Positions 13,049 through 58,547 of a DNA stretch of 64,000 bases are shown piece by piece. The stretch lies in contig CM041204.1 in the NCBI GenBank assembly GCA_023078555.1, positions 1,088,923 through 1,152,922 on the forward strand, given 5' to 3'. Positions within the stretch are counted from its first letter, which is position 1, and every line of letters begins with the position of its first letter. The stretch is from Ulva prolifera (Eukaryota; Chlorophyta; Ulvophyceae; Ulvales; Ulvaceae). The notes beneath the pieces were generated by a model, which ran no database searches, was not told the DNA's origin, and saw only the letters and a program-made list of their open reading frames with translations. The position numbers and the translations under genes are program-made.

Positions 13049-13075
13049 GGTTATGGGCTCATTGTGTTAAGCGCA

Positions 13076-15895: not shown

Positions 15896-15909
15896 TGATT
15901 CAGGGGGGC

Positions 15910-16456
15910 TGTGGTGAAACCAGGAGTTTTCAGGAGAATCATAAGCATGGCTCAATAGGAGACTGCTGTGTGAGGGAGCTAGAAGCTAGCATATCAAGAG
16001 GTGGTTGTACGCATGGTTGCTGTACGCGTGCTCGACGCGATCCCTGAGATAAAGGGACTCAGAAAGCGGGAGCGTTTGTTGTTTTGCACATAGGTAGACA
16101 TTATGTGTCTGTGTGCTTGTTTGCATATAAGCCTTGTGTTGACTCCAGTAGGACATCTTGTCTATTGGAGTTAAACACAGGTATGGTGTCCTCTAGCTGA
16201 CATGCATGGATATGTGGTTGGTTTGTGCTTGTGGACACATAGTCTGCTGAGTTGGTATAACTCAGCATGTTGAATGCAGGCTGCATGAATCTGTGAGTAC
16301 TCTAGAGGGAGACACTCACAGCAGCTGTGTTCTTTCACAGGTATACTTCTACTTAGTGTATACCTCTGTAATCTTGTCTATTGGAGTTAAACACAGGCTG
16401 CATGAATCTGTGAGTACTCTAGAGGGAGACACTCACAGCAGCTGTGTTCTTTCACA
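15910..16456 (+). repeat. Right LTR of Copia-1 (547 bp)
   Basis: Same length and, by eye, same sequence as the left LTR; followed by TSD GTTCT at 16457-16461. Confidence 0.95.
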
Positions 16457-18957: not shown

Positions 18958-18965
18958 GGGTATAC

Positions 18966-25523: not shown

Positions 25524-28500
25524 CTAATCTGATGCTGGAAAAGCCCACACGCGTCTAAAACGTCTCAAATATCGAGCACAGAAAGATTCGGGCGCACCAT
25601 CTCTTGCAGGAGATCCATGGGTATGCATCGAGCGTCCATTGAGTGTTGCGCCCCCCTCCACAGAGATTCCCGCAGCAGCAAAGATGTGGGAGTTCAACAG
25701 ATATAGGTTGGTTGCAACACCTTTGACCAGAATTGCATGATCGTTCGGCAAGGACGGTCCGTAGTGGCGGGCCTCGGTGGCGCGCAGCTCTGCGGTGGCC
25801 CCTCCATGCACGATGAGCTTGCAGTGGTCTAGCGTGACGTCTTGCAGCATGATCCGGCAGTTGGGCCCCCCGCAGATGATAAAACCTCCTGTACAACTTC
25901 TGGCATCAGGTGCAAAGCCTCGGCTACTAGCATATATACATAAAGCGCTCGAGTACGCGTCATGGTGCATCAAGATTGCAAGGTATCTAGGCTGGGCCAT
26001 GCCAGTGGACAACATCATGACCCCGATTCAATCTCATGTTATCATAATGCGGTAGCTAACGACAACATGGAATCGTGCAATCGTGCGTTGAATTGCAAAC
26101 ATGCAGCAATTGCAAGCTTTCAGCACATTTCTGAAATACGCAGCAGGGCTGACCTCTTGCGCAATTGGCGCGCACCTTGAAACACACAGTTGCGGAACAC
26201 GGTGTCACTTGAACCCTCCAAAACGATGACACCCGAGATGCCAAGCTGCAGGCACGCATTGCATACAATTGCGCCGCCCTGTTGCAGCGCCACCCCTGAT
26301 TGTGACCCCACCTCATGATGCTTACTGTGCCGGCCGTGAGCCTTGCAATTGCCACGTGCAGAGGCGTGGCTGTGTACTAGGTCAGAAAAATCCCGGCCCA
26401 AGACCGCCGCTCCCGAAGAGGAGTCCTCTGGTGTAAAGGGCAGTGGCCGCTGGGTTTGTCCACATCCAAAGGCAAACACACTGCCCGGGGTGCTTGTAGC
26501 CAGGCGGGTGAGGAGCTTCCCGATGGAGTAGATATGACTGACATCCTGTACATGACATTTCAGGTACTGAACGCTACCACATGATGCTGCACCTTGATGA
26601 CAGTATGGGACAAGCTGCAAGGCTCTAGCGCATCCGTCTATTATATAGCACGTAGCCAGCTACAGGTTCGCAGCCATGTGTGCCAGTGGCAGTCCAGTGA
26701 TAAGACCGCTCGACCACTGGACCCTTGCACGTCGCGACCAGTGGTAGAGCAGTCTTATCACTGGACTGCCACACCATGCCATAGCACGTGAAGTATCTAA
26801 CTTGACTCAATTTATAAGAATAACCCCTGGGCAAACCGGCGTGCAATATCATTCTGAGCGCTGTCTGATGCAAACAAGTGACTATACAAACAATGCTGAC
26901 ATCAGTGTGACGCACCTCTTCGCTCTCTGGTGTGGGAAGGACTCCACACGCTGTAGTAGCCACCCGCTGTTTTGTGGACGTGGCCAAGGCATGGGGATTG
27001 GGCGCGTCCCCAGCTCCTGACACTGAGAACTCAGGTCCTCCAGCGCTCATGCCAGAGATCATTATATCGCCGCACTCAGGCTGCTGTATAATGTGCATTC
27101 GGTCGCTGCTGAAGGTCGTAGCAGGCTCCGATGTCCTGGCTGTCTGATCAGTTGCCGGTGCAGAGACGACTGCCAGCGATTGCTGCCAGTGACGAGAAGG
27201 CCCAAGGCCTCCTCCCCCTCCATGTGCATTTCTGCCACATGCTAGCTTCAAACATGCAGGCTTGCTGCTAGTGTCGTGCAAACTCTCAACGGCCAGCTGG
27301 GCCCGGGCATTTGAATTCGAAAGACAGCCCTCTGCAGCACTGCCACCGGCAACCCCCAGCAGCGGTTTCTGTGCCCTCATGCCGATAGGTACATGTCTGT
27401 CTGCAAAGGCGATGAAGCGGGTCGTGCAGCCTTCCGAAAGGAGGGCGACCTGCATATCTATCAGTTGCTGCTGCACGGACACCAGGGACGGCCTGTCGGC
27501 AGCCTCGATGGCTGTCATGGATGTGATGAGCTGCTTCAGGGCAGGGGGCCTCACGTAAGCAGGCACTGGAATCGGGCATCCTGCAAATAGCCCACCTTGA
27601 CCTCTGCTGCTGCTGCGCTCTGCTTTGTGCAAGACTGACACAGATACCTCCAAAACTATCAGAGCCGCAAAATCCTGCTTTCTAAACAGCGATATGTGCA
27701 GTGTCTCTACTGTGTTAACTTGACTACATATAATGAATTCATCGAGAGGATCAGCAACCTATTTTAGAAAAGCTCAGTCGGTCAGCAGCACAAGTGTTTC
27801 TCAGCTGACAGTGCACGATGAACCAAAATTGAGGCTGACCGTCACAGTGCCACAGGTGTGACAGTACCTGAGAAGAGCTTGGCAAAGATGGCCTCGAGGG
27901 TGTCTCCGCCGTATGGGTGCGCCCCGGTCGCGGCGTAGAGCAGCGTCGCGCCCATGCTGTACACGTCGCTGCGCCGCTGTGCGTTGCCCAGCAGCTGCTC
28001 CTTCGACGCGTACCCCGGCGTCCCCTTAGCCACACCCTTGACCATTGTCTGCATCGCTGTTGTGATGGATGAGCGCACGCACGTCGGCAGCCGCTTTGCA
28101 AGCCCAAAATCCGCCAGCCGCACGCTGTGCTGCGCTGCGTCGCCGTCGCCACCGTCGCCATTCGAGGCCTTGCTGGAGAGCGCCAGGAGGATGTTGCCGG
28201 GTGTGACATCGAGGTGGAGGCAGCGCGCACTGCGGTGCACGGCGTCCAGCGCGGAGCACAGCATGAGGCCCAGCGTCACAAGGTCCAGCGGCGGCAGGCC
28301 AGGCAGCTTGCACTGCTGCTTCGCACGCGGCACAAGCTCCGCCAGGCTCCCTTCGCACAGCTCCATCAGCAGCCTGCGGTTGCAGCAGTGCATGAGCAGC
28401 CTGCGGTTGCAGCAGTGCATGAGCAGGCTGAGGTGTAGCAGTGCATGAGCAGGCTGAGAACTGGACAGCGGTGCATACTGTAGGATCCGCATGCATTGCA

Positions 28501-30802
28501 GCAGAATGAATTCAGCGAATGGCAAGATGACGATTAGTTCTGGCTTCACAGGTAATGTTCACCATCCACGTAGCCTGCGACGCTGTGTAATTGTTGAAAT
28601 ATTCAAAAAAACACCCCATACACAGGCTGTAGCTAGCAGGGGTCTCACAATTGTCCATTGTAAGCCCACGAACAGCAGTCAGGGCGCACACCAGAGCTCA
28701 GAGTCAGTCCAGCAGTAGCCGTGCAGCTTGCACACGTGCGGGCTCGCAACACCCGCGATGTAAGACGTCGATACCACCTGCTTCACCGCTGCCATCTCCT
28801 TCGCGCCCGCACCGGCCGGCAGCGGCACCTGCTTCACTGCAATTCGTCGCCCTCCAAGCCACCCCTCCTGCACGGTGCCTTCCCCCCCGGCCCCCAGCCG
28901 CTTCCCCAGCGTCACGTCGGAACTCCGCACCAGGCGCGGCGCGTAGCCGTGGCTCTCCGCCGACACAACCTTCGAGACAGTTTCATTCTCTTCCAACAGC
29001 GCGTCCTCCGCCAGAGGCGCGTGGCACAGGGTGCACTGCCGATCCCGCACGAGTTGTTGCGCTCCGGTGTGCGAGACGGCGAAGCCGCAGCACGGCAACG
29101 TTACGGGGCGGAGGGGGCCCTCCGGCATGAGGGGCACTCCCAGCACGAGGCAGGCGGTGACGGCTAGGCAGCCCTTGCTGATAGCCTCCTTCAGGGCTGC
29201 CGCCAACGTCTCATTGCTGGCCGGGGTCTCGCCGTCCGCTGCCTCGTCCAGCTCGTCCAGTGCCTGCACGCATGGGGATCATGCTTACATGCGTGCCTGC
29301 AGTGCTCATCATGATGCGGGTCATACATGTGCAGCAACCAACGCGACTGCAAGACAGGACGGGCACGATTGGCTGTTGTACGTACCCGTCAACGCGGTGT
29401 TTCATTTCGACGGCGACAGCTAAACTGTGAAGCGAATGCGAGCGCCACGGGCAGCCAACCAACACCGATACTTCGAACGGCAGAGTAGAGAACACACTTT
29501 ACGTAGGCACAAGAGTCAGGGTGTGTCCTGCCTGACATATTGTGAAAGTCCAGTGGTAGAGCGGTCTTATCACTGGGCTGTCACACATATGTGGTCATGC
29601 ATGCACATGTTGCCCGTACGAGTCGTCTGGAGCATCGATCGAGCTCTAGCCTAGGCGCCAGCAGATGCGCAGTACGGCAAAGCACGGCTGCAGCACAGCA
29701 CATCTACATTTACTGGGAGGCGCACACCACCGTCGGTACCTGCGTTCATACAGGTCACACATTTTCAGAGGCACAGAAGATCACCTCAAGGATGCGCCCG
29801 GACTGCATGCTGGCGGCGGCGCCGGCGGGCATGCCGCAGAAGCGCTCCAGGCAGCCCTTGATCTGCTCGATGTCCGCACTCATCTCGCGCTGCATCGTCA
29901 GCATCTGCCGCGAGAACGAGTCGACTGTGAGCTGCAGCACGTCCACCGCGTCCATCAGCTGCTCCAGCCCCTCCCCCAGCCGCAGCTGCAGCGCGACACA
30001 ACCCTCCACCACCTTGTCAGTGCTATCGGCATTCAACTGCAGCATGCTGTCATGCATGGTGGCCATGCATTGCTGGATGTCGGCGACGGTCGCGGTCGTC
30101 GAGGCCATGGACTCGACGGTGGCCTGGAGGTGGCGGAGGTGCACAGCGGCCTCGCAGGAAGAGTCCTGGAGGGAGATGGCGCGGCTCTGGAGTTCGGCGA
30201 CGGCGGTGGAGACGTTGGCGGCAGAGGCGACGGAGACGGTGAGCAGGGGGAGTAGCTGCTGTATCTTCTGCATGACTGTGCGCATGCGCTCCTGCAGCAG
30301 CGGGAACTTCAAAGCAGTACAAACAGAAGTTACTTTCAGTTGTTCATGACGCCATGTGAACGTTGACATGGCACTGCACAAGGGGCGGCTATTGGAATTT
30401 GAATGCATGATGATCTGCAATCATCGTGTGTAAGCATGTAAGGGAGAACCGTTAGCCCCCCTGTTCAGTGAGCATGCGGCACTCTGCCTTTACGTAAGTT
30501 CTTTGGTCGCCTATGATGTAACAGTACGACCTCCTGATGTGCAGGACTGTCACTGTTACAGGCACGGCCAGTGCACGATCAGCTTGCAGCTTTCATACTT
30601 GACGGTCGCATCGGGCAGAGGGCGGCACACCGTCTCGCTGCGTATGTTCCACAAGGAGGCGGCGGCGCCGCGGCTTTCGTACTGGGAGAGCTTGTCTGAG
30701 GCCACCCCCACCAGCGCCCCCAGCTCCCGCACCACCGGCTCCGCGTGCGGTGGCACGTCCGCCTTGACACTCTCCAGAACCTTGGCAACGTTCTGCATGA
30801 AC
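25524..30802 (-). CDS. Kinase copy 1: helical / U-box-like / protein kinase / beta-helix protein
   Basis: Seven exons in consistent phase (from the 5' end): 30577-30802, 29785-30306, 28692-29263, 27868-28373, 26916-27580, 26176-26545, 25524-25888 (TAG); about 1,075 residues. Exons 1-2 are all-helical (FMQNVAKVLESVKADVPPHA; LLQERMRTVMQKIQQLLPLL). Exon 3 has a U-box/RING-like segment (RPVTLPCCGFAVS...CTLCHAPL) and the kinase N-lobe (LGAGGEGTV glycine loop, AVKQ lysine). Exon 4 has HLDVTPGNILL (catalytic Asp and Asn), ADFGLAK and GTPGYASKEQ; exon 5 closes the kinase (ADRPSLVSVQQQL) and is followed by a low-complexity linker. Exons 6-7 encode one beta-helix-like module (GGAIVCNACLQL, GSSDTVFRNCVF, GFIICGGPNCRI). 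Likely a Ser/Thr/Tyr kinase with a ligand-binding C-terminus; no signal peptide or membrane segment seen. The true 5' end is uncertain: the ATG at 30881 is out of frame here. It is shorter than copies 2 and 3, lacking their second module. Confidence 0.8.
26687..26771. repeat. Fold-back hairpin in intron 5 of kinase copy 1
   Basis: Arms 26687-26720 and 26738-26771 are complementary at 32 of 34 positions around a 17-nt loop (left arm begins TGGCAGTCCAGTGATAAGAC). One arm also occurs alone in intron 2 (about 29548-29583). It could be a small fold-back transposon or a small-RNA precursor. Confidence 0.85.
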
Positions 30803-31913
30803 CTGCAACCCGGCCCAGCCACAGCGTCAGCTTGGGACTGAATTCCCACTGGCTGGGTAAGATGTCAATGTTGAACATCATGATGCACCTATGTGGCCAG
30901 AAGTGTCTACAGAAGTTCTAGAGTACACGGGAGCAGACTAATTAGTTATAACATAGCACATGGGTCCATTTTGTAGTATTGTATTCTCCCGTAAATAGCA
31001 CATTGGTCCATTCCAAATCAACATCCATCCACACAGCCGCACTGCCGCAGTCTCACAGACACCCTGTTGGCCGGCAGGCGCATGCAGTGGCCTCTCGTCT
31101 GGGGTCAGCTGCAGGGAATCAAGGTGATCTGTTACAAGGACAAACGTGGCGGGACGGGCAGCGATGCGAAGGAAGCAAGCAGATCAAGTACAAACCCAGA
31201 CACCCACGCAACACACACAGAACTCATCACGTGCCCGGAAATTGACGTCGCACCCAGAACCTCAGACCGCTACACGCCCACACCCCCACACGCACCCAAA
31301 CAGACACACACCGCCCCACACAGCACCCCACACCACAACGCTTGTCCCCGCACGACAGAGCCACGCCCGACGAAGGACCGCCCGAGGCTGCCGGTCCGGG
31401 CCGCCTGACTGCCGGAAGCCTCCTCCGCCCCTAACCCCACCCCACCCCACCCCCAGACCCACAGCGCATGCGCACCCTGCCAGCCTGGCAGACCGCCACG
31501 CGGCCCAGCCGGCCCACACCGGAGACGATGCGGTTTCCAGGCTGCTCCTGTGGGGAGTGCACTGTCATATGCATGCACATGCCATCGAAGGCATCCCGGA
31601 CACCCAACAGCCAGAGGCCAGTGGCCGTTGCACCACGTGGTGTCAAGCAGGCGGGACACACAAGGACGCACAGGGACAAACGTGGCGTGGCGGGAAGCAC
31701 CACGAAAAGAACGAGCATCGTTAGATCACAATCATGGATTTAGACAAGTACACCCTAGCTGGCTGTACAGGCACCGCTCGCCTGCAGATGCAGGCGGGCG
31801 CGGTGTTGTAATGGCTCAAGCACACCACAGCGTGGCTGCTCTCAGGCTTATGCACACATCGGCTCATGCATACATTCTGACGCACGCGTTTGTACGCGGG
31901 CGCTGCGAGGACT
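30803..31913. repeat. 5' flank of kinase copy 1, shared with copy 2
   Basis: About 95% like 54983-56180 by eye, and its proximal 400 bp matches 5480-5882. No gene inside: the ORFs here are low-complexity Pro/His/Arg or Gly/Val readings of C-rich DNA (CACACCCCCACACG-type). Presumed promoter region for minus-strand transcription; no TATA assignment is justified. Confidence 0.8.
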
Positions 31914-31917
31914 GAGC
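31914..31917. repeat. Target-site duplication GAGC, left copy
   Basis: GAGC at 31914-31917 and again at 38928-38931 flank the direct-repeat element. The homologous uninserted junction is at about 56181, where CGCTGC runs straight into CTCACATTC. Confidence 0.75.
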
Positions 31918-32604
31918 CAGTAGGTGCACGAAAGTGTTCCTAGCCTAGAACGAACATTCAGATCCGGATGTATTGTGCATTGCAAGCGAATCGCGGCTCG
32001 CTGCGATTCAGCGTATAGCAAGAACAGACCCATGCACGTACAAATCAGGGCAGCAACCCGCTGCAGCTGCGCGCCATTGCCAACGGTCAAATGAATCAGC
32101 AGAGGCAAAAACAGCCACCTCTCCCTGGCATGCGGTCAGCGAGCGCCAGGCAGTGAGCTGTTGCGTGCACATGGGTATTGGCGAGCTGATGCTATCTGGG
32201 CTTGGAAGCGGGTGAATTGGACAGCTTGGTGGTCATTGTGGTTGCGTATCAAGTTCAGTGCCGCGGCGTCGCGGGGTCACCGAGCCCGACATGTTCGGAT
32301 GGCAGCACCAAGAAGCCAAGCCCGACGCAACAGATTGCTACAGATGAGCGCCGTGTCGCGAGCTGGAAGGCTGCTGTTTTTGATAGGCTTCGATATGCTC
32401 GTCAAGCGTTCAGAAGATGTGCCTGTCGCGCGCTTGATGGAAACAGTGATTGCGAAAGCTTTGACACAGACGACCGCACGAGTAGCTGCTGTCAAGTCTT
32501 TGTAACCCTCCTGGTGATCGGTGGCGGCGGCCGGCAACGCTGTCTATGTTAAAAAGCGATTCTCCGGGGGGGCCTAGGCTTGGAACACTAACGAATTGGC
32601 ACAG
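31918..32604. repeat. Left terminal direct repeat (687 bp)
   Basis: Matches 38241-38927 except within the G run near 32570 (CCGGGGGGG versus CCTGGGGGG). Contains a plus-strand ORF (32161-32505, 114 codons) of unknown meaning, present in both repeats. Confidence 0.95.
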
Positions 32605-32870
32605 AAGGGATTCAGGCGTGTTGAGGCGTTTGGAATGCAGGAGCCGCATTGCGCAATATGCACCTCGTGAAACCATGCAGCCGGTAAAGACATGGAGGTA
32701 TAGTATTGGACAGCTTCGGAGGGCACTATTGTGCGTGCCGATTCGTTGTTACACTGGTTGCGAGGAGAGGGCTGCGGGCAGTAGCGCCGGAGCACAACAA
32801 CAGGCTCTTTCAGCAGACTGACAAGGTAATTTCCATGGTGTGTGCGTGCTCTGATGGGCTGTAACGTGCA

Positions 32871-33824
32871 TCACGTCCAGCGTGTGTCTCGAATCCACGC
32901 ACCAGCTGTTCCCTTCAACGTGACCGTTTCTGACACGACAGGCTTATCTGCCGGTCCGGTCACAACGTCAACTTGAACGTCTTGGCCTCGATCAGCGGCC
33001 AGAACTCTGCATATGATCACCTGCTTTCGCACCGAACCCAGTATGTGCTTCCTACCTTCCGGGCCGTTGCCCCTCGCCACAACTGCATCGTTGATCCACT
33101 TCTGATACTGCGCGCCCTGCCACAGCAACTCATTTGAGAGATCAAAGCCTAGAATCTTCAGCCTCACATCTCCTTTCAACGTTCCGACCATGTGCTCCGG
33201 CGGGGAATGAATGTCGGGTGAAATTTTCGACAGCGGCATCAGTTGCCGCTCATGCACGGTGATGTAGTTGATGTTGCGTAGGGACTCATGCCATCTCCGT
33301 AGTAAAACTGGGTGACAGCCGTCCTGAGTGATGGCCCTATGCAGGTCACGAAGTCGGTTGTGCTGGGCATTTCCGCGGCGCATCAACTCTCTCACGCGGC
33401 TGGAGCTCGAGCCCTCGTCGAAAAGCTGCAGGTTGCTCGCTTGCTTATGCGGGGCAGGCGCACCAAGCCGTTGGGAGACGGCCCTTTGGTCGAAGCCAGC
33501 CACGTCTGCGCCTCGCGGCTGCTGGATCACCGATCTGAGCCAGGCATGTCTCGTGTCCCAGTCCAGGCTGAAAAAGCATGGAATTGTGATCGCCCCCCAA
33601 TACTGCTGGGGGATCTGTGCTTCCCTTGCAAAGTTTCGGCACAGCTGTTGATATGCCTCATCACATCCTGTCCTGTAGTGCTTCCGAATGGTAGGCAGTA
33701 CCGCGTAGGCAAACATAGCAGCCAGTTCACTCGAGACTGGCGCTCTTGCCTTCTTGCCTTCTGCAGTCTGCACACATGTTGGCATCCTTGTTCTGTCATT
33801 GTGGCTCTTTGTGTCAGATTGCAT
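32871..33824 (-). CDS. Unknown 317-residue protein of the direct-repeat element
   Basis: Uninterrupted from ATG at 33824 to TGA at 32871. No family recognised. Central helical region (YQQLCRNFAREAQIPQQYW; WHESLRNINYITVHERQL) and a C-terminal part that looks beta-rich (HILGSVRKQVIICRVL, VQVDVVTG). The last codons lie about 270 bp from the left terminal repeat. It is divergent from the nuclease-like exon starting near 33890, so the two may share a promoter. An intact reading frame in a recent insertion suggests a working element gene, but no transposition role can be assigned. Confidence 0.6.
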   Translation of the reverse strand: MQSDTKSHNDRTRMPTCVQTAEGKKARAPVSSELAAMFAYAVLPTIRKHYRTGCDEAYQQLCRNFAREAQIPQQYWGAITIPCFFSLDWDTRHAWLRSVIQQPRGADVAGFDQRAVSQRLGAPAPHKQASNLQLFDEGSSSSRVRELMRRGNAQHNRLRDLHRAITQDGCHPVLLRRWHESLRNINYITVHERQLMPLSKISPDIHSPPEHMVGTLKGDVRLKILGFDLSNELLWQGAQYQKWINDAVVARGNGPEGRKHILGSVRKQVIICRVLAADRGQDVQVDVVTGPADKPVVSETVTLKGTAGAWIRDTRWT

Positions 33825-33979
33825 TTCTGTGAGCTGTCAGAGGTCTGCAAGAGGCACTCTAGCTAAACTTTTGTGTGCAATGTGCAGGTGCTTGTCAGGT
33901 GGAGCAGCTGCAACAGCTTCTACCCCAAGGTTACAAGCTGCACCCATGCCATGACCACCATGGTCATGTGTGTGGGTGC

Positions 33980-34468
33980 ATGATGCCCCTGAAGACGAAG
34001 CCTAAAAGCCCCTGTCAATGCAAGATACATGGCAGATTCAAGGACAGTGGAGGTGCTGAAGCCCTGCAAGTCTTGAGGGAAGCTGGATACTGTGGCCTGG
34101 TGTGCACACAGTGGCCCCTCCACTCAGAGACACAGAAGCTACAGGGTAGGGTGATGGCATCAGTGCACAGGGGTAAGAAGAGAAGCAGACGTGGAGGACA
34201 GTATAGGGAGGGGTGCAACCTGAAGCTGGACCTAGTGTTGTCATCACCAGGTCCAGAGTGCACGTTGGTTGCTGTTGAGGTGCAAGGCAACAATCACACC
34301 AGATCTCGGGTGGTTAAAAGTGATCATGAGAAAACGATTGCATGTCTTGGTGCATGTATTACCGTGTATGGCTTGAGTGCAGATGAATGTATATGTGCTG
34401 TACAGCAAGGGCCATCTCGCTCTGCCAGTGGATTTGTTTCAGCTGTTGACAGTATAGCTTTAGAGATT
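33980..34468 (+). CDS. PD-(D/E)XK-like nuclease candidate of the direct-repeat element
   Basis: 163 codons from ATG 33980 to a phase-0 GTAAGC donor after 34468; the frame is open upstream to an ATGTGCAG acceptor at 33887, so a 5' exon may exist. The first residues hold a Cys/His cluster (CQCKIHG, preceded upstream by CGC). Around residues 82-118 is LKLDLVLSS ... LVAVEVQGNNHTRS ... SDHEKT, i.e. Asp, then beta-strand, then E-X-Q, followed by His and a helix with Lys. That matches the layout of restriction-like PD-(D/E)XK folds of the DUF559/Vsr sort. A basic stretch (RGKKRSRRGG) precedes it. If active it would nick or cut DNA, perhaps for mobility. The family call is from motif shape only. Confidence 0.5.
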
Positions 34469-34516
34469 GTAAGCGTGCTGGCATTGTTCACAACGTGCAT
34501 GTGGTTTGCCATGTGG

Positions 34517-35269
34517 TCACGCAATGTAGCAGCACACCATGAACCATCGTGGATTGAACTTGCCCGTCGTGAAGGCTTCCCATTCTTCCTTCGAGCTCTT
34601 GTTGTGATATGCCTCAATCGCGCTTGGCTGATTGCAGTACCGGTTGCGGACGATATCTTCCTTGTCAGCCTCAGATATGTCATCAAACCAGTATTTGAAC
34701 CCTTGGAACATTTTCTTCTCACCCTCTTCGTCGACAGCCCCATGCCTGGCTCCATGATAGGGATACCAAGCATAGGTGCCATACTGCTGGTGCACAGCAA
34801 TATACACGAGGATCAACGGGAGTGTCCCCACACTGGCGTTTTCCAACTTGGTGTTCCTGATGGGTTGTGGTGTGCCACGGCACCACAGGCCAGTGAGACC
34901 CTCCACCATTGCTGATGGGTCAACACTGAAGGCATCCACCCACCACTGGTTCATGCCATTGCTTGGGTCCCACCTGCACTCTCCTGTGATGTTTGGCATG
35001 CAGCTGTCATCAACACCTGCCTGCTGCTCTTGCCCTTTCTTCCTCTTGTTGTCTTGGGTTGGGGGCTCTTCAGCCACTGGCTCTACAGTCACTGCATTAA
35101 ACTGCATTGGGCTTTGGCCTAAAACTTGGCGAGCACACTCCTGCACCTCGATCATACTCGGGTCATTGCAGCTTATATGGGCTAACAACTCACATGAGGG
35201 GGGGAGCATGCATTGCAGGCAGTGCCCTATGTGGGGGCATGCATAGCAGGAGGTGCAGATCAGACACAC
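34517..35269 (-). CDS. Unknown Cys-rich protein or exon of the direct-repeat element
   Basis: 250 codons to TGA at 34517. It starts with a cysteine cluster (MCLICTSCYACPHIGHCLQC) that could bind zinc, followed by a Lys/Gln-rich linker and a Trp/Tyr-rich C-terminal region (NQWWVDAFSVDPSAM; FKYWFDDISEADKEDI). Its 5' end lies inside the first unit of the 317-bp satellite, so the true upstream exon may be at 37191-37973. It ends 47 bp from the convergent nuclease exon. No family recognised. Confidence 0.5.
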   Translation of the reverse strand: MCLICTSCYACPHIGHCLQCMLPPSCELLAHISCNDPSMIEVQECARQVLGQSPMQFNAVTVEPVAEEPPTQDNKRKKGQEQQAGVDDSCMPNITGECRWDPSNGMNQWWVDAFSVDPSAMVEGLTGLWCRGTPQPIRNTKLENASVGTLPLILVYIAVHQQYGTYAWYPYHGARHGAVDEEGEKKMFQGFKYWFDDISEADKEDIVRNRYCNQPSAIEAYHNKSSKEEWEAFTTGKFNPRWFMVCCYIA

Positions 35270-37139
35270 TGGCTATGCAGATGATGCTGAAACTTGGTAC
35301 ACAGTATGACCATAACGTTGGCTGCTGTATGTTCTGAGATGAGCCTCATTGGAGCTCTGGTGCACTAGATGCACATGCCAACAGGGTGGTCTGTGCATTG
35401 GTCACACCAGGTGCTCTGATGCTCTTTTGACTCTCAAACTTCGTAACTCTACACTACAGCTCAATATGCCCATGGTGTAGAAGATTCAGCGTCGTGCAGT
35501 GAGTGGGGCATGGTCTAGTCCATGTGCAGGTGGCTGCTGGTGTGTTTGCATTGGCATGCATAGCAGGAGGTGCAGATCAGACACACTGGCTATGCAGATG
35601 ATGCTGAAACTTGGTACACAGTATAACCATAAAGTTGGCTGCTGTATGTTCTGAGATGAGCCTCATTGGAGCTCTGGTGCACTAGATGCATATGCCAACA
35701 GGGTGGTCTGTGCATTGGTCACACCACATGCTCTGATGCTCTTTTGACTCTCAAACTTCGTACCTCTACACTACAGGTCAATATGCCCATGGTGTAGAAG
35801 ATTCAGCGTCGTGCAGTGAGTGGGGCATGGTCTAGTCCATGTGCAGGTGGCTGCTGGTGTGTTTGCATTGGCATGCATAGCAGGAGGTGCAGATCAGACA
35901 CACTGGCTATGCAGATGATGCTGAAACTTGGTACACAGTATAATCATGAAGTTGGCTGCTGTATGTTCTGAGATGAGCCTCATTGGAGCTCTGGTGCACT
36001 AGATGCATATGCCAACAGGGTGGTCTGTGCATTGGTCACACCACATGCTCTGATGCTCTTTTGACTCTCAAACTTCGTACCTCTACACTACAGGTCAATA
36101 TGCCCATGGTGTAGAAGATTCAGCGTCGTGCAGTGAGTGGGGCATGGTCTAGTCCATGTGCAGGTGGCTGCTGGTGTGTTTGCATTGGCATGCATAGCAG
36201 GAGGTGCAGATCAGACACACTGGCTATGTAGATGATGCTGAAACTTGGTACACAGTATAACCATAAAGTTGGCTGCTGTATGTTCTGAGATGAGCCTCAT
36301 TGGAGCTCTGGTGCACTAGATGCACATGCCAACAGGGTGGTCTGTGCATTGGTCACACCACATGCTCTGATGCTCTTTTGACTCTCAAACTTCGTAACTC
36401 TACACTACAGGTCAATATGCCCATGGTGTAGAAGATTCAGCGTCGTGCAGTGAGTGGGGCATGGTCTAGTCCATGTGCAGGTGGCTGCTGGTGTGTTTGC
36501 ATTGGCATGCATAGCAGGAGGTGCAGATCAGACACACTGGCTATGCAGATGATGCTGAAACTTGGTACACAGTATAACCATAAAGTTGGCTGCTGTATGT
36601 TCTGAGATGAGCCTCATTGGAGCTCTGGTGCACTAGATGCACATGCCAACAGGGTGGTCTGTGCATTGGTCACACCACATGCTCTGATGCTCTTTTGACT
36701 CTCAAACTTCGTAACTCTACACTACAGGTCAATATGCCCATGGTGTAGAAGATTCAGCGTCGTGCAGTGAGTGGGGCATGGTCTAGTCCATGTGCAGGTG
36801 GCTGCTGGTGTGTTTGCATTGGCATGCATAGCAGGAGGTGCAGATCAGACACACTGGCTATGCAGATGATGCTGAAACTTGGTACACAGTATAACCATAA
36901 AGTTGGCTGCTGTATGTTCTGAGATGAGCCTCATTGGAGCTCTGGTGCACTAGATGCACTTGCCAACAGGGTGGTCTGTGCATTGGTCACACCAGGTGCT
37001 CTGATGCTCTTTTGACTCCCAAACTTCGTAACTCTACACTACAGGTCAATATGCCCATGGTGTAGAAGATTCAGCGTCGTGCAGTGTGTGGGGCATGGTC
37101 TGGTCCATGTGCAGGTGGCTGTGGGTGTGCTTTGCATTG
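35237..37139. repeat. 317-bp tandem satellite, six units
   Basis: GCATGCATAGCAGGAGGTGC recurs at 35237, 35554, 35871, 36188, 36505 and 36822, with a degenerate continuation near 37138; period 317 bp. Units differ at a few bases. The first unit overlaps the 5' end of the ORF at 35269, so the array seems to have grown from an exon/intron edge. No ORF spans the array. Confidence 0.97.
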
Positions 37140-37190
37140 GCATGCATGGCTTGGTGTGCTTTGTGCCAATTCCACTATATTGCAACGGCG

Positions 37191-37973
37191 TCAAGTACAC
37201 ATTCCAGATAAAATGGGACACACTCGGACGTTCTCATCGTTCCTGACTTTCTTCATCCTGATCTTGACCACCATGAGTTTGGGTTCATGCTCTTGTAGTT
37301 GCAGCCACAGTCCCCTCATAGTCTTGCAGCTCAGCTTGTCAAACTCTGCAGCAAATGCTTCTGTCCTCCTTGCACGAAGGTCGTGTAGGTTCCTGTAGAG
37401 GCATTTATTGCCAGCTGCATCTGGATACCCTGCCATGATGAGTTCAAGAATGTTTTGTAGGTGGGGGTGGTTCTTGGCATGTTTGTACCCCTTCACATGA
37501 GGGGGGGCATCCACCACACTGCCTGTCCTGAGCAGCCTTAATGTCCATGTCTTGGCTGCTTCTTTCACGGTGTCACGGTCCAACTCGTGTATTTTTGCAT
37601 TGGTCTCCTTCACCTCATGCCTGCCATTTTCTGTCTCTCTGACCAAATCCAATAATTTATCATATATTGGCTTCCATCGTTGCCGATTGCCTTTCGGCCA
37701 ATCCTTCCCGGAACTGTTTTTGAGCTGCAGTCTCTCGGCAGCTGTCATCTGGTTCATCAAGAATGCTGCCATCACCGCTCTCGTGTGGCGGGACCACCTT
37801 GCATGCGGATGGGCGCCCGCCACTGGTTCGTCACCGTCTAAATCCTCCGCCACAGCTTCGTCCAAATCACTACCAGATGAGTCCGCTGCGCCGCAGTCAG
37901 GTTCACCGTCTGTGCTCTCCCGCCCGCTGCACCGCAAGACAGTATGCAACCTGCCACCGGAACATCCGCACAT
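37191..37973 (-). CDS. Unknown 260-residue protein or 5' exon of the direct-repeat element
   Basis: ATG at 37973, TGA at 37191. Acidic N-terminal half (DSSGSDLDEAVAEDLDGDE), then a basic helical region (MTAAERLQLKNSSGKDWPKG; RQRWKPIYDKLLDLV) and C-terminal helices (LYRNLHDLRARRTEAF). The layout resembles a DNA-binding N-terminal region but no domain is recognised. It begins about 270 bp inside the right terminal repeat, consistent with transcription starting in that repeat and running leftwards, possibly splicing over the satellite to 35269. Confidence 0.5.
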   Translation of the reverse strand: MCGCSGGRLHTVLRCSGRESTDGEPDCGAADSSGSDLDEAVAEDLDGDEPVAGAHPHARWSRHTRAVMAAFLMNQMTAAERLQLKNSSGKDWPKGNRQRWKPIYDKLLDLVRETENGRHEVKETNAKIHELDRDTVKEAAKTWTLRLLRTGSVVDAPPHVKGYKHAKNHPHLQNILELIMAGYPDAAGNKCLYRNLHDLRARRTEAFAAEFDKLSCKTMRGLWLQLQEHEPKLMVVKIRMKKVRNDENVRVCPILSGMCT

Positions 37974-38240
37974 ACACGTCGGACAGACTGCTCGCCACGA
38001 AGATCACCGTGAGTGAACGCTCAGATTAACACTTGCTGTCTAAAACGCGAATCGCCTGCTCAGACGTACCTGTCCATGTCGTCGTCCGTGTGGTGACTCA
38101 TCGCAGCGCTCGAGCAGCCTACCGTTCAAAGCACACAGGTCGTTTCTGGCGCAGACACAAGTTGCGTACCAGTCTAAGTCATATTTATAATTACAAGGGA
38201 GGTTCTGCGCGCACATTCATCACACCACACGAATACGGTT

Positions 38241-38927
38241 CAGTAGGTGCACGAAAGTGTTCCTAGCCTAGAACGAACATTCAGATCCGGATGTATTGTG
38301 CATTGCAAGCGAATCGCGGCTCGCTGCGATTCAGCGTATAGCAAGAACAGACCCATGCACGTACAAATCAGGGCAGCAACCCGCTGCAGCTGCGCGCCAT
38401 TGCCAACGGTCAAATGAATCAGCAGAGGCAAAAACAGCCACCTCTCCCTGGCATGCGGTCAGCGAGCGCCAGGCAGTGAGCTGTTGCGTGCACATGGGTA
38501 TTGGCGAGCTGATGCTATCTGGGCTTGGAAGCGGGTGAATTGGACAGCTTGGTGGTCATTGTGGTTGCGTATCAAGTTCAGTGCCGCGGCGTCGCGGGGT
38601 CACCGAGCCCGACATGTTCGGATGGCAGCACCAAGAAGCCAAGCCCGACGCAACAGATTGCTACAGATGAGCGCCGTGTCGCGAGCTGGAAGGCTGCTGT
38701 TTTTGATAGGCTTCGATATGCTCGTCAAGCGTTCAGAAGATGTGCCTGTCGCGCGCTTGATGGAAACAGTGATTGCGAAAGCTTTGACACAGACGACCGC
38801 ACGAGTAGCTGCTGTCAAGTCTTTGTAACCCTCCTGGTGATCGGTGGCGGCGGCCGGCAACGCTGTCTATGTTAAAAAGCGATTCTCCTGGGGGGCCTAG
38901 GCTTGGAACACTAACGAATTGGCACAG
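38241..38927. repeat. Right terminal direct repeat (687 bp)
   Basis: Partner of 31918-32604; followed at 38928 by TSD GAGC and then CTCACATTC, the sequence that continues the interrupted intergenic region. Confidence 0.95.
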
Positions 38928-39576
38928 GAGCCTCACATTCGCAGTTGAGTCATGATATTGCCGACGCTAGCTGCGAACACCGAGTCGGGGACCAACCTGT
39001 ATTAATTTACGCACTGTTATGTACATATCAGCCCGAGATGCACGGTATGTAGCGTAAACATTACACGGCTAGTCTGGCAGTGTTGAAGACAAGTCTTGGA
39101 CGAGTGTCTCGGCGGCACAGTCTACGTCGGCTTTCACTCGTCGTTGACTGTTCACAGCGAAGGCAACGGGCATAGAAACCCATAGCAAAGGTCAAGTGCC
39201 GAATGCATGATTTCAGGTTCCTCTACAGGTGCATCCGTTCATGTTGACAATTCTAGCGACCTCGAGAGCCATGGGCAGGTCCAGACTCTGACTCTAGGCA
39301 CCCAGCGCAGGTCTGCGACCATCGCGCTTCCTCAGAAATACTATAGTACAAGGCGAGCGTCAGCGCATTCTATGCTACGAGCATTGGAAATCATTCCCGT
39401 GTCTGGTGCACTGGCGATGTGCCGGAATTGCGAGAACCAACAGCACGCAAAGGACCCGGATGTGATCGAGAGACACGTTACAAGCTAGCACTGCGCACAT
39501 TGCGAATGTTTTCCTCTCTCCATCGCGAGCTCTATACAGCTTGAATAGCGTATATGCCTCTCTGATGATCAGCTGA

Positions 39577-40065
39577 ATGGCACTGTCTGCGCCAGAGGGC
39601 AGCAGCTCCATGCTCCAGAGCTTGAGCAGCCAACTTGACCCTTGGCGACGCCGAAACTGAGAAGTCTGCGCCGTGTATCGCCCAGGCAGTGATGAGCCTT
39701 TCAGCAAAACGCTGCTGTACACGCGTTATACATCGCTGTCGATCCTTCCCACGTTTGTCAAAGCCGAGACAAGAGCTCGATTGGACTGGCAGTCCACAGT
39801 TGGAGACTCTGCAGACAGACTTACAACGGCAGAGATGTATGGTGAATTTTTGTTTCTCCATCTACAATTACCAGGATGCCGTTTGGTACTCCTTTCCAGA
39901 CCCATGGCGGGCGACGGTAGCACACGGTGTGGCTACAGGCTACATTCGCGAATGATCATTGCTGAACCGGTCGTTGCGGGCAGCATCCTGTGCGCCATGA
40001 CCCCCACCCAGACAGACGCGTTTGGATCGGCCACGCATCTCATGCAAGCCTTCAGAACGCACTGA
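39577..40065 (+). pseudogene. 163-codon frame with a TGA stop; sister copy at 56828
   Basis: ATG 39577 to TGA 40063-40065, the same length as 56828-57316, but interrupted here by TGA at 39658-39660 where the sister copy has TGC. No domain recognised (FLFLHLQLPGCRLVLL is hydrophobic). It could be a decayed gene or a chance frame in duplicated DNA. Confidence 0.35.
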
Positions 40066-41248
40066 CTCAGCGATGGCATTTTTTGCCGCGTGTCACCAAC
40101 CCCCGCATGCGTATGCCTAGGCAGGAAGCTTCCACGGCCATGTCTGCAGAGCCATGAAACGCCCTGAATAAGGGCTATAGCCCATGTTCAGTGCACTTGC
40201 TCAGTCAACATCTGCGTTGCGCCGGTTCGATGTGGTACTGTCTCAAGTTTCTGCGAAGCTGCCGTGTGGGCGCTAGTGCTGTGCTGCACGGGGTGGCGTT
40301 GGTGTACAAGTGCCGCATCATGAGGCTGCTATGTGGGAGCAGCTCTGCATGTTGTGGCGGTGTTGTGGGGCCCGGGGACGGAGGGTTTCGGGCACGGACG
40401 GCCCTTCGCGCTGCCCTTGACCAGCACCACCTCGTGCGCAGCTTCAGAGCACCACGTCTACACTCATCGCTCAGATTATTCTGGCTGAAAGGCTTGCTCG
40501 CAGCGCGGGCCTGCCCAAGCCGCACCTGTGAGACGTCGACGTCTCGCCTGGATCCAGGCCACCCGGATTCCGGATCCAATCCAGGCCCTTGACGGCAGCA
40601 AGCGCTGCTTCCGCCCGCGAGCATAGCAGAGGCCGTCTCCTTCCCTAGCAACGCAGCACACGGCACGCCATTTGGGGGCACACAAACTTACTGCTGTGGG
40701 ACGGTGCTTGGCCAGCCCGGCCACCTTTGCACTTGCAATGGGGGTTCCTTGGGAGTGAGCCGCAGTCTGAGATGCTAGCTTGCATGCGGACATGTCTTTG
40801 CGGAGAACCAGGAGTGCGCAGGCAGCGTTAGCAGCCAGCTGTGTATGGGCGAGTAACGGAGTCGGCTTGCTTGTGCCGCTTTTCTGTTCTTGTCATGCGC
40901 AAATCTCCCGCGGTCGTACCTGCCCCTCTGACTTTGTCCAAGTGACAGCTTTATCTTGCTGTATTGCAGTATATCAGGTCCGCCCCTGAAACGCGATCAC
41001 AGCATCACACCCATGTGATGGCACGTTATGTGCCCGTTACATCGGTTGGCTGCGATCTTGGTTGTTGCAATCCATACACGCCAAAATGTGTGGTCCTTGA
41101 TGAACACAAGGACCAGAGGCGAGGAGGCAGGTGGAACCACAAAGACACCGAGTAGCTCAAGGAAAGGCCACCAACACAGCACAACGCACCCAAGTCAATG
41201 TCAGGTGCCCACACAAAAAGCCCACCTGCCCAACAAAGACACTCAGCT

Positions 41249-41276
41249 CCCCCCCCCCCCCCCCCCCCCCCCCCCC
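41249..41276. repeat. Poly(C) tract, 28 bases
   Basis: Uninterrupted C run about 150 bp downstream of the kinase copy 2 stop codon; G-rich on the transcribed-sense strand. The sister tract at 58508 has 39 bases. Confidence 0.99.
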
Positions 41277-41422
41277 GCGCACGAGCAGAAACCAAGGCAG
41301 AGCCACTGCACACACCATGATTCACACAAAGCACAGCCCCCAATCAAGTTTCCCATTAATGCAAGTAGTGAGGGACATGGTAGCTGAAGGAGGTGACGCA
41401 AACCCGGCTCATACCATCACAG

Positions 41423-44400
41423 CTAGATCAGATCAGGTGCGCGATTCACATTCGTGCGCACGGCGGTAACACCCCCTCCAGCCTCAACAGCAATGCCTCT
41501 GTTCGTCTCCACTGCGAAGTCCTCGGCAGACAGGGTTGAGCCTGCGCCGGTGACGAGCACCGCGTGGTCTCGGAAGTCAGCGTCATGCCGCGAGAGAGAC
41601 ATGGTGGCCGTCGTGTGGCGCACAGTAGCAGTGGCACCGCCGCTCACCACGAGCATGCAGTCGTGCAGGGCCACACGCTCCAGCACAACGCGGCAGTGGC
41701 GGCTGTGGCAGAACAGCATCCCCCCTGCAACACACCAAGCAGCTCATATGTATGCTCAGATGAAGGTTCTGTGAGTTGGCCGCTATCCTGGCCATCACAC
41801 TCCATGCGCATGCGAACTCGTTGTTGTAGGGAGCCTTCAGGGAACTCATGCATACGCCAATACGATGATCTGGTGCCACAATCCATTGTCGTGGTGCCCA
41901 TGTGACTGGAATGTTTAACTAGTCACAACATCGCGCCGGCAGCGGACCGCGGGAGGCGCGCCGGCACTGTGAGCATGCATGTGCCTTACCCTGGATTTCG
42001 ACGTCGTTGAGCACGGTGTCGCTTGATCCCCCAAGAAAGAGAACCCCGTTCTGGTCCAGCTGCAGGCGGACATTGGAGACTGTCGCGCCGCCCTGTGCCA
42101 GAATCCCCGCCTTGTGAACCCTCAAACTCCCATCCTTCGCCCCGAGAGCCGAGGCCACTGCGTGCAATGCTATGCGGCCGAGACTAGTGTGGAGGTCGGA
42201 AGATAGCTTCTGCTTCCCAGCTCGTGGACCGTAGGTTGAAGTATTCGGGAAGGAGAAGATTCGGCCCGGGTGGTTCTTCGAGAGCCGGGCCACGAGGTGC
42301 GCCAGCGTCTCGATGCCCGTGATGTCCTGGACATGCATGCATGCACGTATGCGTTGTAGCTAGAGAGTGCATGCGCGTAGACATGCGCAGCAGGATCTCA
42401 TCTGAGTCAGCGTTCATTCACGCACAGCTGGCGGAGTCCAGCAAGAGCGTGTCCTCATGCGCATGTGCTGCGATCACACGCATGCGGCAGCGCCTTGGCC
42501 GTCACTGACAGTGGACACAGTCGACGTCAGGTATGCTGCTGAGCTTTATACGAGAGAGTGAACGGAAGAAGACAAACACCAAAACCAGATCTGTATACGA
42601 ATACGCGACCAGGGAACGCGCCACACGTACTTCGCAGCGTACGCCTGTCTGGCCCCGGGGTGCCGCAGGCTACCATCACGATGTCCGCAATTCACTGGCA
42701 GGCGAGAACAGTGGCAGTGTCTCAAAGCTGCTGGCGTGGAACCTATCTACGTGGAACCACCTGACCCTTTCATCAAATCTTTTATAAGCTTAGATTAATT
42801 AATCTAGGTATACGTATTGTGGTCCTGTGAGTGCCACACACTGCAGCTGCAGGGAGATGCACTGTTGAATCATACCTCCAGTTGATCACCAGGCCAATTC
42901 GTATCTCCTGGAGCACGCAGTAGCGATGGGGATGATGCAGAGGCGGTCGCCGCGCCGCCCGGAGCGTATGTTGGCTTCGGCAGGGGCCGCAGCGCGTCCA
43001 GGTCAGCATGGCCGCGTGCAGGGGCGGAAAGCCGTGAGGGTGCCGGTAATGAGGCCTGCCGGGTCCAAGCGGGCACGTCGGCCAAAGTTTCAGGCGCGGG
43101 GCCGGGAGAGGGGAGGAACCGCAGCGAGCCGTCGGTCGTGGCGCTGCGTTGCATCGGCACCGCAGTGTCTGCATGCATGGACAAATTGTCACCACGGCTT
43201 TGAGCTTCACGCAAGCACCTGAACTTCATGCTGGCCGGCGGCTGGCATGCAGTTCCGGGTGGCCAGTGGCCTGCCGGACGCAGCTGTGAAACTGTCGCGG
43301 ACCGCCCCTATCCCTAGGGCCCCCCCCCCCCCCCCCCCCCCCCAGCGACAGCCAAAAGCTGTCATCATGATTTGCTGTCACTTCTAAAACATGCATACCC
43401 AGCTTGCAGTCAGCGTGTGCCCATACTGCCATCAATATGATATTATGGCCGCAGAGCAAACATGTTCACTGCAAGCACATACCGAAGGCATGTACAGCAC
43501 TGGCCATAGAGCAGCACGAGCTATAGCGCAGCCAAGCCAGATCGCCCTGTGCAACCACTTGCAAATGGTCAATTCTGCACAGTGCAGCTGCCTGGCATGG
43601 CCGTGAGCCAATGAGACAATCCATGTTCCATGTCCTTGACTGCGATATGACATGTAGCCCTGACAATACAAGGGAGCGAATCGATGCGGAGGTGCAGGCC
43701 TAGGTTGAAATCGCCGAGCACACCATGCGAGCCGTGGACTTGCATCCAGTCTCCGATGAGCGTTGCGCCCTCTTCCACGGCAATCCCCACAGCGGCCAGG
43801 ATGTGGGCATCTGCCACATGCAGGTTGGAGACCATCCCTGTGACCACCACCGCGTGGTCGCTGAGAATGCATGTCCCCGAGTGCTGCGCCTGCGTGGCGT
43901 GCAGCTCGGCCGTGGCCCCGCCATGCACAATGAGCTGGCAGTGGTCCAGAGTGACGTGGTGCAGAGCGAGGCGGCAGTTGGGGCCCCCGCAGATGATGAC
44001 GCCCCCTGCAACATACGTACAGCTGACAGCATGACCCAAGCTTTGGCCATCAATAGGAGTGGCTTGAATGCAGGCTGACGCAGGTCAACGCCATCGTGTC
44101 TGGGTCGATGTCACAGTCAGCTTAGGGAGAGAGCAAACAACAGCATGTACATACATAGCTCTAAGGCCGGTAAATTCATAGCACATGCATGTCCATGCAC
44201 TAGCGTGACACAGGGCAGTAGCTTCAATGGCTCGTGCCTTGAATAACACAGTTTTTGAAGACCGTGTCGCTTGTCCCCTCAAGAATGATGGCACCAGATT
44301 GGCCGAGCTGCAGGCACGCGTTGTCCACCGTCGCGCCGCCCCTGTCCAGCACCACGCCCACCCGCAGCCCCGGCGAAACGCGTTCACGCTCGCTGCGGCC

Positions 44401-47400
44401 CGTCTTCAGGCTGAAAGACTTCCTTGTTGCAGGGGGCTGCCTAGGCAGCAGGTGCGAGAAGTCGCGGGCCTTGACGGCCGCGACCGACGCGTCCGTGCGT
44501 GCGAGGGGCAGAGGCTGCTGGATGTGTCTGAAGCCCAGGGAAAATACGTGGCCGGGGCTGCTTGCGGCAAGGCGGCTGAACAGCTGCCCAACGGTGTGGA
44601 TGTTGCTGATGTCCTGTACAGCATCAGGTTAAGAACTCTTGTCTCTGCCGCATGCCAAATCGTCTCCACTCGACGACGCGGCACGATACTATATCTCCAG
44701 GATAAAGGCAAGGATACAGGGACGCAGTCAGGCCATGCATACAGGTCATCCATGGGTGGGCAGGAGCAACACTGAAAACCAGGCACATCGATATCCCTTC
44801 TCAAGCAAACATGCTTTCGAGGCATCACGCATTCAGATGGGCAAGCTACGGCTGGCCACCGAGCATACAAACGAAACCACCAGCACGTGTAATCGTATGT
44901 GCGGCGCCCCGCGATGCAGACCGGTGCCGCGTGCCTGAAATTTACGTACATGCATGTATCAATACACACCATGCACCACGCAGTCCGATGTGATCCGGAG
45001 GCATCGCGTTGGCAGGCGGTGGTGCTAGTGCGGCATACCTCTTGAACTTGTGCCTGTGGCCGCACTCCACGCCCTGTGTCTGACGATTGCTCTGGTGTGG
45101 ACGCGTCCAAGGCACGGGTATCTCCTAACTGTGCAGGTTCACGCCCCCCGGCACTCACAGATGATGGTGACATTTTTTTTACTGCAGGCTGCTGTGACTC
45201 GTGTGCTTGGGTATCACTCGTAGCCACAGCTGGCTCCGACGTCTCAGTTGTCTTCTCTGTTACCGGTGCAGAGACGACCGCCAGCGGCTGCTCAGGGACA
45301 GCCTCCAGGTCCGCTGCAGCACTAGTACTAGTGCTGGCAAGTCCCAATGGGGGCGGCTGTGCCCTCATACCGGCGGATCCGCCGGAGAGATGGCGATCTC
45401 CAAAGGCGATGAATCGAGTGGAGGAGCCTTCAGCGAGGAGGGCGACCTGGATGGCCATCAGCTGCTGCTGCACGGACGCCAGGGGCGGCCTGTCGGCAGC
45501 CTCAATGGCTGTCATGGATGTGATGAGCTGCTTCAGGGCAGGAGGCTCCACGTATGTCGGCACTGGGATCGGAATTCCTGCAGTAGCAGACCTTCGTCAG
45601 CAGCTGCTGACATTCAACTCAGAAGTTGCGGCGCGCAATGTAATACCAAAGTCTATCTGTGATGATTACCATGGCTATGATGTGCTAAACGCTCTCGGCA
45701 GGGAAGCGGACCGGCTACCGCGACACGGACACGAACTTGATCACGCGATAGGCTTTCTTGTTGAGTCTTAGTTTCTGTTTTTGTGTCTTTCGGAATTCGC
45801 CCGCGGGCAGTGGCGATGCGACGATGAGGCTGCGCTCGAGTCAAGACGAGGCACTCTCGGCAACTATCGCAACCAGAAGTCATCCCAGGTGCCAGAACTC
45901 ACAGATCCCGAGTTAGATGTTTTATTGTGTTATGTTGTGCGTTCCTGGCCAGCTTGGTCCGGCAACACCCATTGCCGACGCCGTGTGCTGCGTGGTTGCC
46001 GAACTATTGCGCACTGCTTGTTTCTACATGCTTTGCCCGTTTCACACCCACAGAATGCATACCATCTCGCTTATAACATCTGATTCCCGATTCTGGTGGG
46101 CAGTTGCACGAGCACACGGTAGTTGCGTGAGTGTGTGTCTTCTCGCGCCGCGATGTTTAGTTTCGGGCTGTGCTAGCAATGCCAAGACGCCGAACTGCGC
46201 GGCATGTTGCCGCTCAAAGACAGTTATTGTGTGCCTTCTCCTTTTGTTTACGGGCTCCGCGATGTTCAGGCTCCGCGAGCCCGTGCCGTCAGCGTTCTTG
46301 CTGTGCGGCTACGCCTGATGCACGACTGTAGCGCATGTTGTTGGGCACGCAGGCCCGAGCCCATGCATACACTTGTAGTCATCACAGTCTGTGTGTGTGT
46401 GTGGCGAGCAGACCGCGAAACGTGCAAAGTCTGGGGGGGATCCCGGCGGATGCCCTGCCGCACGCCCAATGCTTGTCCAACGTGAGTGTGCCTGGCAAAC
46501 TCCCACGGTCAAACGGGCTGTACGAGCCAAGCGCTTGTCCCACGTGGGTGTCTCTGGCAGCTCACGGTCAAGCGGGTGGTTCGGTGGGGGTTCTGTGTGC
46601 TATGTCGCGCTCTCCGAATAAAGGGTGGAGAGGGCCTCATAAGAGTAGCCTCGTTCGCTGCCCTCCCGAGTAGACAGCCTGAGGGCGTAGCTGGCGGAAG
46701 CCCGCCACCCCCGCAGACAGCGTACCACGTTAATGACCTGTCCTGCTTTTTGCACGCACACCACAATGCTCTTGGGGTCTGACTCGTGCGGCCGCTGTGT
46801 CCCGATGCGAACTTATTAGAGTGTTCACAACAAAAGCACAGTGCATGATTCAAAACGCCCTTCCGGGCGACTTCTCCATCTCCGGGTCCGGTGCGCGAGT
46901 AGCGCGCGCCCGGCCTTATGCCGGGCTTGTTAGTGCGAGTCAGTAGCTGTGTTGTGGAGTGTGGTGTCTGGTCTGGGTTCCGGCTCCTACAGTCCGGTGT
47001 GTGGCGTCTCTGCTCTGTATGCCACGTAGGTACACTGGGCTGGGGAGCCCTTGTTGGGCATCCGTACGTGGATGTGCTGTCAAGTGTTCTCTGTGCTACG
47101 TGTTGCAGTCTCCTGTGTGGTATGTTGTGATGGTGTGGTTAATGTTGGGGGGCGGGCGGTGTCCTCCCCCTCCCCCATTCTGGTGTCTGCTTGACTAGTA
47201 TGTGGTGGCTGGTGCAATGTCGCACAGCCACGTGCGTAGTTGTCCATGTGCGCATGCTCGTTTTCGATCCGTACCGCAACAGCCTGGTCCTCTCCCCTCC
47301 AACACGACTCTCTATGACTGAGACAGTGAACGCGCTTGTGATGCAACAAACTGGCATAAGGCATCAGCAGCACAATGAGCATGAGGAGGTGATGCAAGTT

Positions 47401-58506: not shown

Positions 58507-58507
<1 letters not shown>

Positions 58508-58546: not shown

Positions 58547-58547
<1 letters not shown>

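Follow-up and report, generated by a model that had tools for sequence, protein, structure and literature searches.

A probable composite-like DNA transposon in Ulva prolifera with long direct repeats, a predicted transposase gene and an antisense nuclease gene

The window analysed here is a stretch of 64,000 nucleotides of Ulva prolifera (Chlorophyta, Ulvophyceae; assembly GCA_023078555.1, contig CM041204.1, positions 1,088,923 to 1,152,922 of the forward strand), and at its positions 31918-38927 lies a 7-kb mobile element bounded by direct repeats of 687 bp. There are good grounds to regard it as a composite-like DNA transposon, in which two mobile-unit-like repeats stand in direct order around a cargo of a probable transposase and an antisense nuclease. 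This architecture has been reported for one group of animal transposons, KolobokP (Kojima and Bao 2022, PMC9587614), and on the best reading the Ulva element is a second composite-like lineage that evolved separately. The fuller proposition, of a new DDE superfamily that reached the composite-like plan independently of KolobokP and bears a PD-(D/E)XK nuclease antisense in a transposase intron, is put forward tentatively, the balance of chances lying very slightly against it.

The features of the element and of the empty paralogous site are as follows, with 'transposase sense' meaning the minus strand of the window.

31914-31917, strand not applicable: left target duplication, GAGC
31918-32604, minus strand: 687-bp terminal direct repeat, the right-hand copy in transposase sense, CTGTGCC...CTACTG
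31933-31948: one arm of the subterminal inverted repeat in the first direct repeat; its partner is at 32574-32589; the same pair recurs at 38256-38271 and 38897-38912
32871-33767, minus strand: predicted exon 3, with candidate catalytic D2 (33561-33563) and E (33195-33197)
33875-34468, plus strand: PD-(D/E)XK nuclease-like gene, antisense in predicted intron 2; its open frame reaches 34915
34538-35140, minus strand: predicted exon 2, with candidate catalytic D1 (codon 34934-34936)
35236-37147, strand not applicable: tandem array of 6 x 317 bp within predicted intron 1; copy number varies between full copies
37272-37973, minus strand: predicted exon 1 of the probable transposase, an open reading frame (ORF) with uncertain start codon, donor ATG/GTGGTC, homologous to gene A of family 2
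38241-38927, minus strand: 687-bp terminal direct repeat, the left-hand copy in transposase sense
38928-38931, strand not applicable: right target duplication, GAGC
56168-56190, plus strand: empty paralogous site with an 11-bp deletion next to the insertion point

The element entered its site as a single unit, duplicating 4 bp. Its two repeats differ by a single mismatch and GAGC stands at both outer edges, as had been noticed when the sequence alone was read, and between the repeats are three long ORFs on the minus strand, one on the plus strand and the 6 x 317-bp array. The same sequence-only reading took an empty paralogous site at 56180 as proof of recent insertion; that site is real and collinear across the insertion point, yet 11 bp are missing alongside it. 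A search with the site returned six matches, namely itself, a copy at C9:60277 that is 100% identical and has the same 11-bp deletion, two further empty paralogues and the two insertion flanks. The undisturbed target with a single GAGC is present in the two further paralogues (C9:312777-313052 and C36:12603-12879), and the insertion is thus established without relying on the deleted site. The deletion itself was considered as proof of excision and rejected, lying beside the insertion point but with two more indels within 250 bp; it could be an excision scar or chance. The surroundings form a segmental duplication of 81-96% identity (27866-31661 and 38930-45640 against 52224-55884 and 56180-62822), of which a third, partial copy occupies 62827-64000, and the element sits in one copy.

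To place the element in its genome, 88.9 Mb in 44 contigs were searched; family 1 denotes the window element, and families 2 and 3 are other repeat families of the same genome. The 687-bp repeat matches 38 places, and three full elements were found, none of which contains gag-pol.

Window, 31918-38927: 7010 bp, 6 units of 317 bp, repeat pair differing by 1 base
C1:669941-681388: 11448 bp, 20 units of 317 bp (by length only), repeat pair differing by 0
C5:8813316-8819690: 6375 bp, 4 units of 317 bp, repeat pair differing by 0

These copies align at 97-99%, and the unit numbers of 6, 20 and 4 follow from lengths that differ by whole 317-bp units. Thirty repeat places comprise six in full copies, two in a repeat-repeat tandem, 16 solo repeats with both ends, two interrupted solos and four partial copies, the last being left out of the scoring of duplications; the other eight are two second pieces of the interrupted solos, two pieces of a divergent copy (C5:541146-541959, unscored) and four outside the count. 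Of the 16 two-ended solos, 12 have perfect 4-bp duplications, as do both interrupted ones (14/18), all three full copies and the tandem. The tandem (C1:4345378-4346748) consists of two identical repeats that have CAG in common at their junction, with GAAG flanking the pair at either end. The evidence supports a mobile element that is multicopy and carries genes, the possibility of single-copy repeats having fallen away, and no larger relative with gag-pol came to light. Two candidates for such a relative were rejected: the surplus 4438 bp of the 11.4-kb copy are 14 further units of 317 bp, and at C2:4358914-4365165 a Copia element lies within a solo repeat that is flanked by its own CTAG duplication. 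This nested Copia, with frames of 937 and 689 residues, mimics a gag-pol parent.

Used as queries, the proteins of the window led to two loci with decayed relatives (C6:7732-7737 kb and C6:7797-7802 kb) and to family 2, which is distant, its best E values being 2.5e-5 (exon 1) and 1.4e-4 (exon 3). Family 3 was reached by a search with PF10881. Protein identity among the three families is 22-37%.

C2:5492914-5498575: family 2 monomer, 637-bp repeats, pair identical
C1:11222518-11228100: family 2 monomer, 637-bp repeats, pair identical
C1 array: family 2 multimer of five internal units and six repeats, the repeats shared between units
C3:6451556-6458431: family 3 element, identical 670-bp repeats, TCAC duplication

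The reading of these loci left out 11886655-11887311 (657 bases) in the C1 array and most of C3:6451577-6452599 in the family 3 element. The two monomers and the array of family 2 have outer duplications of ACAT, GATT and GTGG, and 4-bp duplications also flank four of four solos read in family 2 and four of five in family 3; pooled over the three families, they occur at 30 of the 35 insertions examined, and TTAA is found in none of these 30. The families share a common plan: the same gene, in which D, D and E residues can be aligned, a PD-(D/E)XK nuclease gene antisense in an intron, a minisatellite, 4-bp duplications and solos. The minisatellite is the 317-bp array of intron 1 in family 1, and an array of about 72 bp (family 2) or 153 bp (family 3) in the nuclease-bearing intron. 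Match tables list further gene copies on C5, C1, C3 and C6, along with more divergent relatives, one at C4:6542960-6545464 with 57% for gene B and 52% for the nuclease, the other at C3:3847131-3848296 with 34-37% for gene B and no nuclease match. Outside this genome no relatives were confirmed in viral contigs or prokaryote genomes, in scans that used short peptide patterns and that distant relatives could therefore escape.

Each repeat is itself mobile-unit-like, having imperfect inverted ends (CTGT.../CAGT...) in addition to the 4-bp duplication. In transposase sense the repeats of families 1, 2 and 3 start with CTGTGCC, CTGTCCC and CTCTGGT, and their opposite ends, reverse-complemented, read CAGTAGG, CAGTCGG and CACCGGT, so that the termini are CT...TG in all three families and, as first noticed from the window, not TG...CA. 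Over the first 40 positions the inverted ends match in register at 22, 22 and 27 positions, scores that 11, 4 and 0 of 20000 control pairs from the interior of the same repeats also reach. The family 1 match is concentrated in AGTGTTCC-AGCCTAG, where 15 of 16 positions agree at 16-31 nucleotides from each repeat end, a score reached by one of 1000 shuffles. Compared with each other, the repeats of the three families have no similarity beyond a 14-base match (E ~0.5). Repeats away from internal regions are many: among the 40 scored of 114 candidates in family 2, 30 lie outside the monomers and the array, and among the 40 scored of 131 in family 3, 34 lie outside the element and away from known internal pieces. 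This fits independent movement of the repeat, though recombination may also account for it. A uniform match of 78-79% to the family 2 repeat occurs at eleven places (including C9:2026468, C6:7418450 and C3:9500922), which may represent a separate solo subfamily, and one family 2 element adjoins a tandemly repeated sequence of about 168-bp period at C2:5498576-5499227.

The three minus-strand ORFs, first described as an intact 317-residue ORF and two unknown ones, are indeed present, but are best read as predicted exons of a single spliced gene. Gene A ends in F(M/L) followed by GT, and gene B starts directly after CAG, each at one alignment position and in phase 0 in families 1-3; it is on these conserved junctions that 37272-37973, 34538-35140 and 32871-33767 are joined. 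An alignment of the three families, from which the opening 110 residues in family 1 and the N-terminal exons in the other two families were omitted, has only five invariant acidic columns: the D of F(L/M)DxGK, an E, the D of SxDNAPxH, and the D and E of PDxHxxxExxVG. Family 1 has the variants WVDAF at the first of these motifs and SLDWDTRH at the SxDNAPxH motif. The first D, the D preceding NAPxH and the last E form a candidate catalytic triad, split over two exons and visible only across the aligned families. The first statement that none of the element's readable ORFs has reverse transcriptase (RT), integrase or DDE signatures stands for RT, of which none is seen, and gives way, as to DDE, to a candidate D-D-E triad on the family alignment. 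The predicted spliced gene most likely encodes a DDE-type transposase, this being the weakest step of our reading.

In all three families the nuclease gene has the same placement, on the opposite strand in the large last intron, which separates predicted exon 2 from exon 3. At every locus where both genes were seen, they are on opposite strands. The PD-(D/E)XK-like exon recognised in the window has been borne out: PF10881 matches the family 2 protein at E 1e-8, above the cut-off, and that of family 3 at 3e-4, likewise under the cut-off as in the window, with PF18741 at 1e-5, and a D, the E of AVEVxG and an H are invariant in the three families. By these profiles and residues the predicted nuclease is a PD-(D/E)XK enzyme of the DUF2726/MTES_1575 type. 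Searching the genome with PF10881 gave 12 places, each within families 1-3, and missed the C4 relative. Weak PADLOC and PHROGs nuclease matches (E 0.0013 to 0.032) were not used.

Both genes are under purifying selection. Measured against the decayed C6 copies, exon 3 has a ratio of nonsynonymous to synonymous substitution (dN/dS) of 0.37 and exon 2 has ratios of 0.48 and 0.36, with 1.27 for a control frame; the nuclease, against decayed relatives, has 0.41 over 90 codons and 0.56 over 85. Between near-identical copies dN/dS ranges from 0.06 to 0.41, family 2 gene B excepted.

That exception is one of several points that tell against the interpretation as a composite-like transposon, the ratio being 1.41 between two copies, from six changes only. 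The predicted transposase has no meaningful match in Pfam, NCBIfam, PHROGs or the Protein Data Bank (PDB), and the first candidate D falls where conservation is poor, in an alignment of three sequences. The gene B match between families 1 and 3 is weak (E 0.047, 22%), the window nuclease reaches PF10881 only at E 0.0042, below the Pfam cut-off, and local alignment gives weak inverted ends for family 2, with a score that 102 of 5000 controls reach. Movement of single repeats is unproven, since solos may arise by recombination.

Four structural forms exist, namely solos, monomers, the repeat-repeat tandem and the family 2 five-unit multimer with its shared repeats. In the mechanism we propose, the transposase would recognise the ends of any repeat and could move either the whole element or a lone repeat, lone repeats would travel as non-autonomous units, and recombination between repeats would additionally yield solos and multimers. 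The nuclease may cut within or at a repeat, whereupon repair from another copy would add repeat-plus-internal units and rebuild composites, as the KolobokP authors propose; their proposal, made without experiment, is that the element multiplies by unequal crossover which its nuclease induces (PMC9587614). In the repeat-repeat tandem the internal part may have been lost from the inner ends, which then joined at CAG, though a chance deletion would also serve.

The likeness to KolobokP is considerable. In its members, which are known from animals, the terminal direct repeats measure about 450 or 660 bp and each has its own inverted ends; a DDD/E transposase and a nuclease are encoded on complementary strands, and there are solos, (repeat-internal)n-repeat multimers and duplications of 3-5 bp (PMC9587614). 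The Ulva element likewise combines long repeats that have inverted ends, transposase and nuclease on opposite strands, solos, multimers and short duplications, so that the term 'new class', used when the window was first read, goes too far where the architecture is concerned; for the transposase lineage, novelty is possible. KolobokP has a His-Me nuclease, RR...YY ends and zinc fingers, whereas here the nuclease is PD-(D/E)XK-like, the ends are CT...TG and there is no such zinc finger, and, unlike in KolobokP, the nuclease is nested in a transposase intron and the element has internal minisatellites. The KolobokP paper knew such long terminal direct repeats from no other DNA transposon (PMC9587614), and none was found in the literature searched here, subscription journals and Repbase aside. 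Bacterial composite transposons are similar in having two directly repeated mobile units around an internal region, and differ in that the transposase here is internal and not in the flanking units (PMC9587614).

Other resemblances are narrower. PD-(D/E)XK nucleases are paired with DDE transposases in the TnsA/TnsB proteins of Tn7. KolobokE has the same pairing (PMC9587614). To both, the likeness is one of enzyme pairing alone, the nuclease here being DUF2726/MTES_1575-like and antisense. Transposases of the IS630/Tc1/mariner group have the motifs DNAxxH and SPDxNPIExxWxxLK and a D-to-E spacing of about 34-39 residues. The motifs DNAPxH and PDxHxxxExxxGxxK of the Ulva protein presumably resemble these, but the D-to-E spacing is 122-171 residues with one residue more before the E, and there is neither a TA duplication nor a Pfam match.

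Three other explanations have to be weighed. That the element belongs to the Kolobok superfamily, as a divergent relative of KolobokP whose His-Me nuclease was swapped for a PD-(D/E)XK one, draws on the shared architecture, on repeats near the 660-bp class and on the complementary-strand nuclease, and we regard it as unlikely: the 5' ends start with CT or CA and not RR, neither a conserved C/DxxH motif nor conserved cysteines between the second D and the E are present, and TTAA is missing from the 30 duplications, weak specificity being reported for KolobokP itself (PMC9587614). The comparison was made against the published description, not sequences. The conserved genes might instead be cargo of an unrelated transposase encoded elsewhere, with D, D and E aligned by chance; the call as DDE is motif-based and no known transposase is matched, but each of the three repeat families is accompanied by this gene set, on which purifying selection acts, and we give this explanation only a very small chance.

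The third is a non-autonomous long terminal repeat (LTR) retrotransposon with captured genes, moved by a Copia or Gypsy element. A gene-carrying non-autonomous LTR element had been suggested at the outset, and direct terminal repeats, a 4-bp duplication and many solos are indeed LTR-like, in a genome where Copia elements are present. It is not supported, and we consider it highly improbable. The repeats run CTG...CTG instead of TG...CA, and have inverted ends that the window's own Copia lacks (9/40 positions). Neither a priming site nor a polypurine tract was seen beside them by eye, in either orientation and without tRNA comparison. The same gene set accompanies families whose repeats are unrelated, and the one apparent gag-pol copy is the Copia nested in a solo repeat described above. 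The window's Copia (12502-16457), which served as control, has identical 548-bp direct repeats starting TGTG and a 965-residue gag-RT frame (RVT_2 E 8.3e-50), in which Pfam recognises gag, a zinc knuckle, Pol_BBD and RVT_2, with no integrase core at E 0.001. Elsewhere in the window are tandem arrays at 3120-3538 (64 bp), 18161-18960 (183 bp) and 22400-23390 (244 bp).

Annotation pipelines would class elements such as the composite-like transposon described here as LTR retrotransposons without pol. If our reading is true, two unrelated lineages have the same plan and a similar repeat length, and repeats plus nuclease would be a working propagation system and not an accident. With a second lineage, in which repeats of similar length, solos and multimers occur together with a nuclease of unrelated type that is likewise antisense, the proposal made for KolobokP would become a comparative test, in which the features common to both lineages would indicate what the mechanism needs.

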